NCBI RefSeq assembly: GCF_016756745.1
Contig: NZ_JAESIH010000051.1
Span: 1-64,000, forward strand
Direction of reading: 5' to 3'
Source: Aminivibrio sp.
Lineage (GTDB): Bacteria > Synergistota > Synergistia > Synergistales > Aminobacteriaceae
DNA: 64,000 nucleotides
Positions 1 to 5,057 of this stretch are shown here, piece after piece (position 1 is the stretch's first letter; each line of letters starts with the position of its first letter). The notes under the pieces were generated by a model that saw nothing but the letters and a program-made list of their open reading frames with translations, ran no database searches and was not told where the DNA came from. A program made the position numbers and the translations under genes.

Positions 1-870
<870 letters not shown>

Positions 871-879
871 AAACCACGA

Positions 880-2370
880 ATGGACGCGAATGAACGCAAA
901 TTGAAGGAACTGATCCGCAGGGGTGAAGGCATTTCGACCGAGTTCAAAACCTGTCGGAACAGCCTCAGCCGGGATGTCTACGAGACAGTTTGCGCCTTTC
1001 TGAATCGGCATGGAGGGACGATTCTGCTCGGTGTTCAGGATTCGGGAGAGGTGCTGGGCATTGCCCCCGGCACCGTCGAACAGATGAAAAAGGACTTCGT
1101 GACTGCTATCAACAACCCGCAGAAACTCCAGCCGCCCGCCTATCTTTCAGTGGATGAAATGATGCTGGAAGGGAAACCAATCCTTCGCATTTATGTTCCG
1201 GAAAGTTCCCAGGTTCACCGTTGTAAGGGCCGCATTTATGACCGCAATGAAGACGGTGATCTCGACATTACAGACAATACCCGCCTGGTAGGTGACCTTT
1301 ACCAGCGTAAGCAGGCAACTTATTCAGAGAATAAAATATACCCATATGCCGGGCTGGACGAACTGGAGCATGAGCTGCTTGCAAAGTGCCGCAAGATCGC
1401 GGTGTTGCGTCGAGAGGACCATCCTTGGCGGAACATGGACGATATGGAACTCCTCAAAAGCGCGCAGCTCTATCAGACAGATCCGGAAACAGGCAAGAGC
1501 GGTGTTACCCTTGCCGGTTTATTGCTCCTAGGCAAACGGTCGCCGTTACTGTCAGCAGTGCCGCACCACCGCACCGACCTCATCCTGCGCAAGGTGAACC
1601 TGGACCGCTATGACGACCGGGATTTCGTGGACGTCAATCTGGTCGAGAGCTACGACCGCATCATGGCTTTTGTCGCCAAACATCTGCCGGACCCTTTCTA
1701 TCTTGAAGGTACGACCAGCATCAGCATCCGTGACGCAATCTTCCGCGAAGTCGCCTCGAACATCCTGATCCATCGGGAATACACCAACGCTTTTCCCGCT
1801 AAGTTGATTATCGAGCGGGGTCAGGTACGTACCGAAAACAGCAATAAACCGCATGGCTTCGGCGTTTTGAACCCGGAAACATTCACACCTTTCCCCAAAA
1901 ATCCAGTCATTGCAGCCTTCTTCCGCCGGATCGGCCGCGCCGATGAGCTGGGTTCCGGCATGCGCAAGTTGATGCGGTACGGCAAGGCGTATGGCGGTGC
2001 CAATCCCGAATTGATCGAAGGCGATGTATTTCAAATCGTCGTGAAGGTACCGGAGTTCAGCTCAACAGGTGAAGAATCAGGCACCTCCGAAGTCAAGCCC
2101 CAAGTTACACCCCATGTTTCACCCCAAGTCACACCCCAAGTCGAACGTCTGCTTCGGGTCGTCAAGGGTGAAGTAGACCGAGATGCTCTTCAGCAGGCGG
2201 TTGGTCTGAAAGCCCGCAAGAACTTTAGGCAGTTGTATTTGGCTCCAGCCATCGACGCCGGACTAATCGAGATGACAATCCCGGATAAACCTCGCAGCAG
2301 CAAGCAAAAATACAGGCTGACAGAGAAGGGCCGGAATGTGCTGAAGGGAATCGGAGGAGGCAGCGAGTGA
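880..2370 (+). CDS. AlbA_2/Schlafen-type ATP-binding protein with C-terminal winged helix
   Basis: A 496-residue protein. Residues about 15-140 match the AlbA_2 (Schlafen-like, putative DNA-binding) domain, with the typical EFK start and a GGTILLGVQD core. Residues about 270-380 look like the GHKL-type ATPase module found in these proteins, including an N-box-like REVASNILIHREY and the ADELGSGMRKL segment. A Pro/Val/Gln-rich linker with repeated PQVTP units leads to a winged-helix domain at about 425-495. Such proteins occur as accessory genes in defence islands and as transcription regulators. The gene is intact although both flanking defence-like genes are broken. It starts 9 bases after the upstream stop; ATG at 880 or 889 is possible. 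Specific function unknown. Confidence 0.75.
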   Translation: MDANERKLKELIRRGEGISTEFKTCRNSLSRDVYETVCAFLNRHGGTILLGVQDSGEVLGIAPGTVEQMKKDFVTAINNPQKLQPPAYLSVDEMMLEGKPILRIYVPESSQVHRCKGRIYDRNEDGDLDITDNTRLVGDLYQRKQATYSENKIYPYAGLDELEHELLAKCRKIAVLRREDHPWRNMDDMELLKSAQLYQTDPETGKSGVTLAGLLLLGKRSPLLSAVPHHRTDLILRKVNLDRYDDRDFVDVNLVESYDRIMAFVAKHLPDPFYLEGTTSISIRDAIFREVASNILIHREYTNAFPAKLIIERGQVRTENSNKPHGFGVLNPETFTPFPKNPVIAAFFRRIGRADELGSGMRKLMRYGKAYGGANPELIEGDVFQIVVKVPEFSSTGEESGTSEVKPQVTPHVSPQVTPQVERLLRVVKGEVDRDALQQAVGLKARKNFRQLYLAPAIDAGLIEMTIPDKPRSSKQKYRLTEKGRNVLKGIGGGSE

Positions 2371-2378
2371 GCAAGTTC

Positions 2379-2415
2379 GGGTTCCTGGTTTCTGGTTCAG
2401 AGTTCCTGGTTGAGG
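2379..2415 (+). repeat. Left arm of 37-bp inverted repeat flanking the IVP gene
   Basis: The arm is built from GGTTyCTGG-like units and ends 7 bases before the four-helix-bundle gene. Its reverse complement recurs at 2832-2868, with 29 of 37 positions identical in an ungapped hand alignment. The pair brackets the small gene like the ends of a cassette. Confidence 0.7.
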
Positions 2416-2422
2416 AAGAACG

Positions 2423-2812
2423 ATGGCAAGCATAGAGAGATTTGAGGACATCGAAGCCTGGCAAAAGGCTCGCGAACTGACGCAGGAGATTTACCGGATC
2501 ACAAATCAAGGCTCTTTTGCAAGGGACTTCGGTGTTCGCGATCAGATACGGCGGGCCGCTGTTTCGGTAATGTCCAATATCGCCGAAGGCTTTGGCAGAG
2601 GCGGAAACAAGGAGTTTATTCAATTCCTTTCAACCGCCAAGGGTTCAGCGTCAGAGGTTCAGGCTCAGCTTTATGTAGCCTTGGACGCGGGGCACATAAC
2701 GAAAGAACAATTTCGACAGCTATATGATCTGGCGCAGTCATCGGGAAAACTGACAGGTGGTTTCATCCGCTATTTGCAGAAGTCGGACCATAAAGGAGTG
2801 AAGTTCTCATGA
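2423..2812 (+). CDS. Four-helix-bundle protein (S23/IVP family)
   Basis: A 129-residue protein of the four-helix-bundle family first known from intervening sequences of 23S rRNA genes (S23 ribosomal / IVP-like). The N-terminal FEDIEAWQKARELT, the central RRAAVSVMSNIAEGFGRG and the C-terminal GGFIRYL are the family's conserved blocks, and the length is typical. Biochemical role unknown. Here it is not inside rRNA but inserted between the AlbA-type gene and a methyltransferase, enclosed by inverted repeats at 2379-2415 and 2832-2868. Its TGA overlaps the ATG of the next frame (ATGA), so the downstream frame may be translationally coupled. Confidence 0.85.
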   Translation: MASIERFEDIEAWQKARELTQEIYRITNQGSFARDFGVRDQIRRAAVSVMSNIAEGFGRGGNKEFIQFLSTAKGSASEVQAQLYVALDAGHITKEQFRQLYDLAQSSGKLTGGFIRYLQKSDHKGVKFS

Positions 2813-3598
2813 GCCGGAAAGAATTACCCGGCTTCAACCAGGAACCAGAAACCAGGCACCAGAAACCCGTCGAATGTCTCGGCATGACGTTCCCGAACGA
2901 CGAGGAGAGGCGGAAGCATTTTCTCGGTATCCTGCGCGAGAAGCTGAAGGACCCCGAGTTCCGCAAGATCGAGGGGTTCCCGCACGGCAGCGACAAGGAC
3001 ATCCTGGCGCTCTCCGCCCCGCCGTACTACACGGCCTGCCCGAACCCGTTCATTGCCGATTTCATCAAGCATTACGGCAAACCCTACGACCCGGCAACCG
3101 ATAATTATCGCCGCGAGCCATTCGCAAGTGACACGGGTGCGGGAAAGACCCATCCCATCTACACGGCGCATTCGTACCATTCCAAGATCCCCCATCTGGC
3201 CACCATGCCATGTATCCTGCACTACACCGAGCCGGGCGATATTGTATTCGACGGGTTCTCCGGTTCGGGCATGACGGGCGTGGCGGCGCAGCTTTGCGGC
3301 CAACCGGAAGCAGAGTTCAAGGCAACTCTTGAGGCGGAATGGAAAAAACGGGTTATGCACCACCCAAGTGGGGATCACGGCGGCCTATCCTCATCGACCT
3401 TTCACCTGTTGCCAATTTCATTGCCTATAACCTCAATCTGGATGTTTCAGCCCGCGAGTTCAAGAAAGCTGCTGATCATTTCTTCAAGAAGATCGAGTCG
3501 AAACTCGGCTGGTTGTACGAGACCCTGCACACAGACGGCGAGCGTAAGGGCCGTATCAACTATGTGGTCTGGTCCGAAGTCTTCACCTGCCCTAACTG
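2809..3598 (+). pseudogene. DNA methyltransferase (BREX PglX-like), broken
   Basis: N-terminal remnant of a large N4/N6 DNA methyltransferase. The first ~20 residues are read from the right inverted-repeat arm; family-like sequence begins at PVECLGMTF. The catalytic motif, normally DPPYY, reads APPYY (codon GCC instead of GAC). The AdoMet-binding motif FDGFSGSGMTG follows. One base is missing in the A6 run at 3343-3348, after which the protein continues in another frame (LIDLSPVANFIAYNLN to FTCPNCA). Homology stops at about 3598, where a MITE copy takes over. Family members are several times longer, so most of the gene is lost. With frameshift, motif change and truncation it is very unlikely to work. 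Confidence 0.7.
2832..2868 (-). repeat. Right arm of 37-bp inverted repeat flanking the IVP gene
   Basis: Inverted counterpart of 2379-2415. It lies inside the start of the methyltransferase frame and encodes its odd N-terminal extension, so it was probably placed there together with the IVP gene. Confidence 0.7.
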
Positions 3599-3647
3599 CG
3601 CCCAAGCGGTCCCCGGTGACGCCCCCTGCTGGGGTGCGGATTTAGGG
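3591..3647 (+). mobile_element. MITE copy 1 (short, eroded left end)
   Basis: Right-half sequence of the family, from CCCAAGCGGTCCCCGGTGAC to the right terminus GCGGATTTAGG. The left boundary is unclear: CCTAACTGCGC at 3591 resembles the left terminus at 9 of 11 positions, but it also encodes the methyltransferase's CPNC motif. It marks the point where the methyltransferase homology ends. No target duplication is visible. Confidence 0.65.
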
Positions 3648-3803
3648 CTAACCCTCTCGCTTGACGATAAGAGACGGTTGATGGCGGAGCCCCCGGCGCG
3701 GATATTTTCCCCCGGCGTCCGGCCAATCTCTTCAGAAGAGGGATGATGCTGCGAAAGCCGGGTACAATGGTGTGAGAAAAAAGAACTTCGAGGAGGCTCG
3801 GCA

Positions 3804-5057
3804 ATGACTTCAGGAGGAAATTCCCCTTCCCGTCCGGTTGTGCGGGGCGATGTGCTTCTTGGGCAGATTGAAAGCCTCGCGTCGGTGGGGCTGGATTCGG
3901 AGGGCGGCAGGACGAGGCTCGCCCTTTCGGAAAGTGAAAAGGCGGGCAGGGATTTGGTGGTTCGCTGGATGGAGGAGGCCGGGCTCGAGGTCAGGGTGGA
4001 CAGGATCGGCAACATTTTCGGCATTCTTCGGGGGGCGGACGGAGGGCTCGGGAACGGCCTGATGATAGGTTCCCACATTGATACTGTGATCCATGCGGGA
4101 CCCTTTGACGGCTGTTACGGTGTCCTGTCCGGCCTGGCAGTGCTCAGGGCCTTTCGGGAGGCAGGCGTGGTTCCTCCCCGTCCGCTTGCGGTTGCCGCAT
4201 TCACGAACGAAGAGGGAGTACGATTTCAGCCGGATATGCTGGGTTCCCTGGTAGCCGCGGGGGGCATGCCCCTCGGGGAGGCTCTGAACATCGCCGACGG
4301 GCAGGGATGCACCGTGGGCGAAGCCCTCGCCGCCATAGGCTGTTCCGGAGGGGAAGAGCCCGGGTTTCTGCTTCCTTCCGAATACCTTGAGCTTCATGTG
4401 GAACAGGGGCCGAGGCTCGACGCCGAAAAGAAGCGGATCGGTGTGGTGGAGGGAGTACAGGGAATATCATGGTGGCGGGTCACCGTTGAAGGAACGGCCA
4501 ATCATGCCGGAACGACGCCGATGAAGATGCGCCATGATGCGGGATATGCCGCCGCCCTGGTGTCGGTGTTCCTGAGGGAGCGTTCCCTCTCTTCCGGAAC
4601 CACTCTTGCCACCGTCGGGACCATTGCCTTCGAGCCCTGCGCGGTGAACGTCATTCCCTCGAAGGCCGTCTTTACGGTGGACCTCCGTGATCCGGACGGT
4701 GCGAAGCTGACGGAGGCGGAGGAGGGGCTTGCGGCGTTCCTGGAAAAAACGGCTCTCGAGGAGGGCGTCCGGATTTTATCGGAGCACCTGGTACGTTGCG
4801 AACCCGTGGTCTTCGACAGGGAACTCGTCCAGACCGTCGAAGACGCCGCCGTTTCCAAAGGCTATTCCTCCATGAGGCTGGTCTCGGGAGCAGGTCACGA
4901 TGCCCAGATGATGGCCGGAGTCTGCAGGGCGGCCATGATTTTCGTCCCGAGCATTGGCGGTGTCAGCCACAGCCCGGATGAAAAAACATCCGCCGGGGAC
5001 CTGCTTGCCGGGGTCGATGTCCTTCTTGACGTGGTCCTGAGGGTGCTGGGGTTCTGA
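3804..5057 (+). CDS. M20-family N-carbamoyl-L-amino-acid hydrolase / allantoate amidohydrolase
   Basis: A 417-residue cytosolic amidase of the M20 family that removes carbamoyl-type groups from amino acids or allantoate; the substrate cannot be fixed from sequence. Metal-ligand positions typical of the family are visible: His91 (GSHIDTV), Asp102 (GPFDGCYG), Glu136/137 (TNEEGVRF), His198 (LELHVEQGP) and His365 (GAGHDAQMM). The dimerisation insert with GTANHAGTTPM is at about 230-240. A GAGGAGG ribosome-binding site precedes the ATG. It stands alone and upstream of an arginine-deiminase-like gene, fitting ureido and amino-acid catabolism. Confidence 0.88.
   Translation: MTSGGNSPSRPVVRGDVLLGQIESLASVGLDSEGGRTRLALSESEKAGRDLVVRWMEEAGLEVRVDRIGNIFGILRGADGGLGNGLMIGSHIDTVIHAGPFDGCYGVLSGLAVLRAFREAGVVPPRPLAVAAFTNEEGVRFQPDMLGSLVAAGGMPLGEALNIADGQGCTVGEALAAIGCSGGEEPGFLLPSEYLELHVEQGPRLDAEKKRIGVVEGVQGISWWRVTVEGTANHAGTTPMKMRHDAGYAAALVSVFLRERSLSSGTTLATVGTIAFEPCAVNVIPSKAVFTVDLRDPDGAKLTEAEEGLAAFLEKTALEEGVRILSEHLVRCEPVVFDRELVQTVEDAAVSKGYSSMRLVSGAGHDAQMMAGVCRAAMIFVPSIGGVSHSPDEKTSAGDLLAGVDVLLDVVLRVLGF

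Follow-up and report, generated by a model that had tools for sequence, protein, structure and literature searches.

Proteins of the IVP/S23 family are, to our knowledge, common orphans whose fold has been solved and whose role is not known. The STRR repeats of cyanobacteria also belong to the background against which the present locus has to be viewed. The closest described system is the intervening sequence (IVS) in the 23S rRNA of Coxiella burnetii, which carries an S23p open reading frame in the loop between terminal inverted repeats forming a 28-bp stem, and which has been described as a selfish element (PMC4990558; this and the following papers are cited from parts of their texts). Tandem heptameric GACAGAT repeats of strain-variable copy number lie just upstream of the reading frame and are treated as a local feature in the available sections of that report, which also refers to work describing the Xanthomonas protein as homopentameric (Lin et al., 2006, via PMC4990558). 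REPIN/RAYT systems combine a gene between inverted short repeats with dispersed hairpin doublets, the repeat type being paired with a protein clade (PMC3116915), and the palindromic elements of Rickettsia are short palindromes of about 150 bp which lie in frame in protein genes and add a peptide (PMC10969869). Finally, orphan heptamer arrays have been reported, represented by GGGAATC in Xanthomonas and GGGGATT in Nostoc (PMC4692102), TAACTGA in Beggiatoaceae (PMC4679880), and GGGACCG and MTYCTGA in Geobacter metallireducens (PMC2700814). These arrays have a period of 7 and are in some cases located within genes; they often form convergent pairs, of which two Xanthomonas genomes have 70 and 75. 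As far as the main texts of these three papers go, a word search returned no mention of S23, nor of "four helix" in PMC4692102 and PMC4679880, nor of "intervening sequence" or IVS in PMC4679880. Apart from the Coxiella heptamers, no text joining free-standing IVP genes to heptad arms was found in a literature search lying outside most subscription journals, which leaves this absence weak.

The window, i.e., the whole stretch of 64,000 nucleotides analyzed here, starts at a contig end and contains the following features:

48..870, plus strand: remnant of a BrxC/PglY (DUF6079) gene in frames 48-563 and 664-870, with a frameshift between about 563 and 664
880..2370, plus strand: Schlafen/AlbA_2 - Fic-like-C gene upstream of the element, with an orthologue in the IVP-less operon L234
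2367..2369, plus strand: GTG (GTGAGCAAGTTC), candidate ancestral methyltransferase start to the left of the element
2378..2413, plus strand: left arm, a degenerate heptad array (GGTTCCT GGTTTCT GGTTCAGA GTTCCT GGTTGA)
2423..2812, plus strand: IVP/S23/four-helix-bundle gene of 129 aa (PF05635, TIGR02436)
2792..2798, plus strand: AAAGGAG, possible ribosome-binding site for the frame starting at 2809, inside the IVP 3' end
2809..3645, plus strand: remnant of a PglX-type methyltransferase gene, 278 aa versus 923 aa in L234, with the right arm in its N-terminus
2834..2869, plus strand: right arm, an inverted heptad array coding for approximately FNQEPETRHQKP within the methyltransferase frame

The arms and the IVP gene are likely to represent a copy of a small palindromic insertion element, with IVP as its sole gene and inverted arrays of about four to five copies of a degenerate heptamer as its ends. 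As judged from a repeat search of the window, the arms are 36 nt long each, 81% complementary and spaced by 420 nt, in essential agreement with the 29 of 37 identical positions reported in the first-pass annotation; the GGTTyCTGG units described there are real repeats, but the arms consist of tandem heptads (GGTTYCT) rather than of unique 37-mers. The sequence GGTTYCTGGTTYCTGG gives four matches in the window at up to two mismatches, all of them within the two arms, compared with a mean of 0.44 in shuffled windows (none of 100 shuffles reaches four), and its matches at up to one mismatch in the 2.94-Mb genome are confined to the arms as well (one forward, three overlapping reverse). The left-arm sequence recurs identically at locus L033 of Desulfacinum hydrothermale. 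The gene between the arms matches PF05635 (E = 4e-37) and TIGR02436 (E = 5e-35) with scores well above the curated cut-offs (127 bits versus 33.8, and 119.9 versus 24), is the only TIGR02436 member found in a profile search of its genome, and has 2gsc (XCC0516) as the nearest solved structure. An Rfam scan of positions 1-5000 of the window yielded no rRNA and only two sub-threshold matches; phage records gave no match, and 12 pattern matches obtained by scanning viral contigs with the IVP protein included no relative.

As had been noticed before, the IVP stop codon (TGA, 2810-2812) overlaps the start codon of the next frame (ATG, 2809-2811), which is also the case in L033 and L034, and the right arm lies inside the PglX N-terminus, where it covers about codons 9-20 and is closely followed by the conserved PVECLGMTF. 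In the window (2786-2812), L033, L034, L035, and L036, a Shine-Dalgarno-like AAAGGAG or AAGGGAG codes for the IVP C-terminus HKGVKF/Y, as if positioned for a restart of translation downstream; this layout of the IVP 3' end is common to L033 and L034.

The expectation that the same flanking arms would be found at other IVP genes was not borne out in its literal form. TIGR02436 has 28 matches in 19 of 149 Synergistota genomes, and none of the loci other than the window contains a GGTTYCT array, only stray single motifs being present; GGTTYCTGG arms were rejected as a general feature, since the array occurs in the window alone among these matches. Most Synergistota IVP loci have inverted short-repeat arms of their own, with a unit differing from that of the window. 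A scan of named bacterial genomes provided the closest relatives of the window IVP, the best 80 of which (L033-L112) stem from many phyla according to their record titles. Comparing the 350 bp upstream with the reverse complement of the 350 bp downstream, an arm score of at least 30 was obtained for 59 of the 79 usable loci (L050 lacked downstream DNA) versus 10 of the 518 ORFs taken as controls from these loci and 55 of 929 mismatched pairs, which runs against the alternative envisaged in the first-pass annotation that IVP homologues generally lack arms. A chance inverted repeat is ruled out by the shuffles, the genome-wide search with GGTTYCTGGTTYCTGG and these scores.

The periodicity of the arms was assessed with a pooled set which represents part of the matches of the larger searches (30 loci per search plus 40 stretches), leaves out IVP matches covering fewer than about 70 profile positions and excludes L065, a 99.99% duplicate of L064, from the period, orientation, core and correlation counts. 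Among the 162 of 166 IVP genes flanked by 150 bp or more on either side, 97 flank pairs reach a lag-7 self-match of at least 12, compared with 5 of 221 control windows, which were drawn from the IVP loci themselves and not from random genomes. The best lag is 7 or 14 in 111 of the 162 pairs versus 8 of the 221 controls; lags other than 7 and its double are near background in the IVP flanks, and 20 of the 162 genes are devoid of any periodic array at score 10. Arrays are present on both sides in 78 of the 166 cases, with heptad profiles agreeing in inverted orientation in 61 and in direct orientation in 13 of them, compared with agreement in 11.7% of mismatched loci; the median array length is 4.4 units (251 arrays). 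The feature common to IVP homologues is the pairing of two period-7 arrays in inverted orientation, with a 7-mer that varies by locus, and the comparisons, many of which involve metagenome assemblies, show heptad arms flanking most IVP genes across phyla. Genome G156 has 17 IVP genes, most of those read being without heptad arms. The arms change quickly, as seen between L060 and L068 or between L064 and L069; in the latter case the IVP ORFs are 92% identical and lie in the same operon, the arrays of L069 being expanded and inverted.

The core of the heptad follows the IVP protein clade. With loci picked by protein and not by repeat, an RGTY core in outward sense is present in 82 of the 117 window-clade arrays (at least 50% identity) and in opposite sense in 8, compared with 3 of 28 arrays at 40-50% identity and 11 of 106 below 40%. 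The correlation over all pairs is weak (Spearman 0.17, a value reached in none of 300 permutations), a clear rise in array similarity being confined to protein identities above 60%. L080 and L089 have arms with an RGTY core and a period of 8 or 9 instead of 7. Because heptad core and protein co-vary, IVP may bind its arms; the arms would be the recognition ends of the element.

A search for arrays of GGGAATC, the published orphan repeat of Xanthomonas (PMC4692102), in 369 genomes sampled from the class to which G151 (the Thiohalocapsa marina genome) belongs revealed a single carrier, G590. As predicted beforehand from the orphan repeat, this genome contains an IVP gene, in frameshifted form, with GGGAATC arms, through which the repeat type gains an IVP partner. 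The gene, which belongs to another clade than the window IVP, is located between two genes which we take to be accB and accC on the basis of their sequence motifs. The accB-accC spacer is filled with IVP and both arms in G590 (470 bp) and G652 (483 bp) and empty in six genus-mates (13, 13, 71, 14, 13, and 11 bp), one of which is 92% identical in the accB flank; the empty sites contain no array, the filled ones two. As a candidate target-site duplication, GCC is found on both sides of the element in G590 and G652, but the left spacer differs from that of the empty sites. In the family of G590, IVP is present in 20 of 59 genomes, and 18 of 22 loci read have a lag-7 array scoring 8 or more on one or both sides; seven loci (L321, L322, L323, L329, L333, L334, and L336) show IVP adjoining accC with GGGAWT-type arms.

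Heptad hairpins also occur without the gene. Three of them lie in frame in the BrxC/PglY gene of L049 (3561-4330) and one in the PglX gene of L035 (8536-8610), coding for peptides that resemble VPGSxxLVSGSxNQEPETRNQEP, and the orthologues compared are free of them. The acidobacterial genome G159 contains 85 + 80 matches to five RGTYNNN units and 104 + 104 to its own unit; the 19 array sites read are all hairpins, mostly of ~83 bp with arms of 4-5 units, and their unit is the arm unit of one of the four IVP genes of G159. Genome G205 of the same family gives 54 + 50 matches to an RGTTTCA array, and no IVP gene was detected in it despite these arrays. In G590, the gene-less hairpin L312 shares about 9 nt of non-repeat sequence with the IVP element beside each arm, as expected of an internal-deletion derivative. 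The gene-less arrays look like non-autonomous hairpin derivatives, and the reservation that arms might be found equally often without the gene applies in part: such arrays exist and outnumber the gene-bearing copies in some genomes.

Three results, namely the filled and empty accB-accC sites, the in-frame gene-less hairpins and the identity of GGGAATC with an IVP arm unit, show insertion. IVP gene and arms behave as one inserted unit in these comparisons, the filled and empty sites showing the arms as part of the insertion. The original suggestion of a tiny gene moving with its arms gains support in this respect, both from accB-accC and from IVP-less operons corresponding to the window site. 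Such versions of the methyltransferase operon, which had been proposed as a check, were sought and found at L234, L236, L237, and L238, being carried by Roseicitreum, Roseomonas, and Leisingera on plasmids; a further one, in which the methyltransferase is cut off, comes from Klebsiella.

In the window, the element is positioned at the Schlafen/PglX junction of a BREX-type operon, for which PADLOC reports BrxC (8e-63) and PglX (8e-87), both genes being broken. The operon is decaying, as seen from the BrxC/PglY frameshift and the short PglX; the PglX frame stops after 278 aa and is followed by unrelated metabolic genes. IVP is found within a BrxC/PglY-(Schlafen)-PglX operon at 18 of 83 loci of the window clade, mostly just 5' of pglX, and between BrxC and Schlafen in L035. 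Loci L016 (Synergistota) and L039 (Thiohalocapsa marina) are 93% identical in DNA along 1.34 kb and 92% identical along 0.6 kb surrounding IVP in the BREX-type operon, a similarity which would reflect recent transfer between phyla.

The element would have entered the junction in such a way that its right arm was incorporated into the PglX N-terminus. In the IVP-less operon L234, AATGAGC overlaps the upstream stop, and the methyltransferase ATG in Roseicitreum shares bases with the stop codon of the preceding gene; in the window, the GTG at 2367..2369 overlaps the stop (TGA, 2368-2370) of the Schlafen gene. The sequence to the left of the left arm at this stop reads GTGAGCAAG in the window, GTGACCAAG in L034, and GTGAGCGAG in L039. 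The peptide encoded by the array borders immediately on V-x-CLG in IVP-bearing relatives (...NQEPETRHQKP/VECLG in the window, ...RPATRDSGP/VTCLG in L064). We infer that the ancestral methyltransferase start lay to the left of the left arm and that the element supplied a new one. The N-termini would also allow the ATG at 2809 as ancestral start, in which case the right arm could stem from an array inserted independently; the N-terminus MQEELFNS of the IVP-bearing L039 resembles MQQDSLFSS of the IVP-less Klebsiella operon.

The unit encodes IVP as its only gene, with no transposase, recombinase, or reverse transcriptase, and the enzyme for strand transfer is probably supplied by the host, because IVP matches no transposase domain. 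The hairpins may be internal-deletion derivatives mobilized in trans, by analogy to REPINs, which are thought to be mobilized by RAYTs. The five subunits of the Xanthomonas homopentamer and the 4-5 heptads per arm make a suggestive match, nothing more.

Another reading, which we consider unlikely, is that the arms pair in the transcript and RNase III cleavage releases the IVP message from the operon mRNA; gene and arms would then form a resident regulatory module that is not mobile. It draws on the Coxiella IVS, where the terminal inverted repeats of 28 bp and the heptamers upstream of the S23p ORF go along with excision by RNase III (PMC4990558, from the sections available), and on the 18 operon loci, most of which have IVP immediately 5' of pglX. 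However, the arm mismatches comprise 111 G.U-compatible versus 142 A.C-type ones, and the sign of selection for a sense-strand RNA stem is absent because the G.U-compatible mismatches are not in excess; moreover, gene-less in-frame hairpins and clean filled and empty sites require an insertion mechanism anyway. RNA processing may be an additional property of the insertion element rather than an alternative to it.

It is less probable still that IVP genes have merely settled in or near pre-existing heptad arrays, these being ordinary satellites produced by slippage or hot spots of recombination. Arrays do expand and change quickly (L060 versus L068, L064 versus L069) and do occur without the gene, but the window genome is free of them outside the two arms, the accB-accC spacer is array-free when empty and has two arrays when filled, and heptad core and protein clade go together. 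A gene inserted into a tandem array would furthermore be left with direct arms, whereas 61 of the 78 pairs are inverted and 13 direct. Finally, it is very improbable that IVP is a functional accessory of BREX-type defence operons with the arms as operon regulatory sequences, a view suggested by the 18 of 83 operon loci and the PADLOC calls for BrxC and PglX in the window, but opposed by the other 65 loci, which lie elsewhere or have none of these genes in the stretch examined, by the IVP-less operons of the same type on plasmids, the varying position of IVP (L035), the broken state of the window operon (BrxC frameshift, short PglX), and the lack of any PADLOC model matching IVP.

The proposed link of IVP proteins with their own heptad as specific nucleic-acid partner, and with insertion, provides this family with a first testable function. 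As a tentative extension, which we would not yet favor over narrower views, heptad-armed IVP elements might constitute a distinct and very widespread class of mobile DNA, in which a non-catalytic pentameric IVP would read about five heptads per arm, roughly one per subunit, and in which elements and gene-less hairpins would be copied by a host-encoded enzyme; the orphan heptamer arrays (Xanthomonas GGGAATC, cyanobacterial STRRs, TAACTGA, Geobacter GGGACCG) and the rRNA intervening sequences would all be branches or debris of this class. The link also suggests a common source for several heptamer-repeat families that were published separately, and it opens the old question of how rRNA intervening sequences arose to direct tests.

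Parts of this picture are already known from the IVS as a selfish element with heptamers, the REPINs, the Rickettsia palindromic elements, and the orphan heptamer arrays (PMC4990558, PMC3116915, PMC10969869, PMC4692102, PMC4679880, and PMC2700814, as far as the parts of these texts reach), and the findings point to an overlooked kind of small mobile element. With respect to BREX, both BrxC/PglY and PglX are present at the window, each as a broken gene. The window element shares with the Coxiella IVS the terminal inverted repeats around an S23p ORF, but is flanked by Schlafen/AlbA and PglX genes instead of lying inside a 23S rRNA gene. More generally, the elements described here are found in protein-coding operons and intergenic spacers, not in rRNA, their heptads form the arms themselves, and their gene-less hairpins are dispersed. 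Compared to REPIN/RAYT, the unit contains no Y1 transposase, IVP being a small four-helix bundle, and the arms consist of heptad arrays instead of one REP palindrome; dispersed hairpins in the same genome are lacking in the window genome and present in relatives such as G159. REPINs driven by RAYTs were rejected, since Y1_Tnp (PF01797) is missing in three of the seven array-bearing genomes searched (the window genome, G184, and G205) and was found in the other four. With MITEs and insertion sequences the element has in common terminal inverted repeats, represented by the arms, and discrete insertion, as seen from the filled and empty accB-accC sites and the IVP-less operons for the window site, but no transposase, the unit encoding IVP alone. 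As in the Rickettsia palindromic elements, palindromes lie in frame in protein genes, three in L049 and one in L035, with a single arm in the window PglX; unlike those elements of about 150 bp (PMC10969869, in the part available), the heptad hairpins are about 65-85 bp long and linked to the IVP gene.
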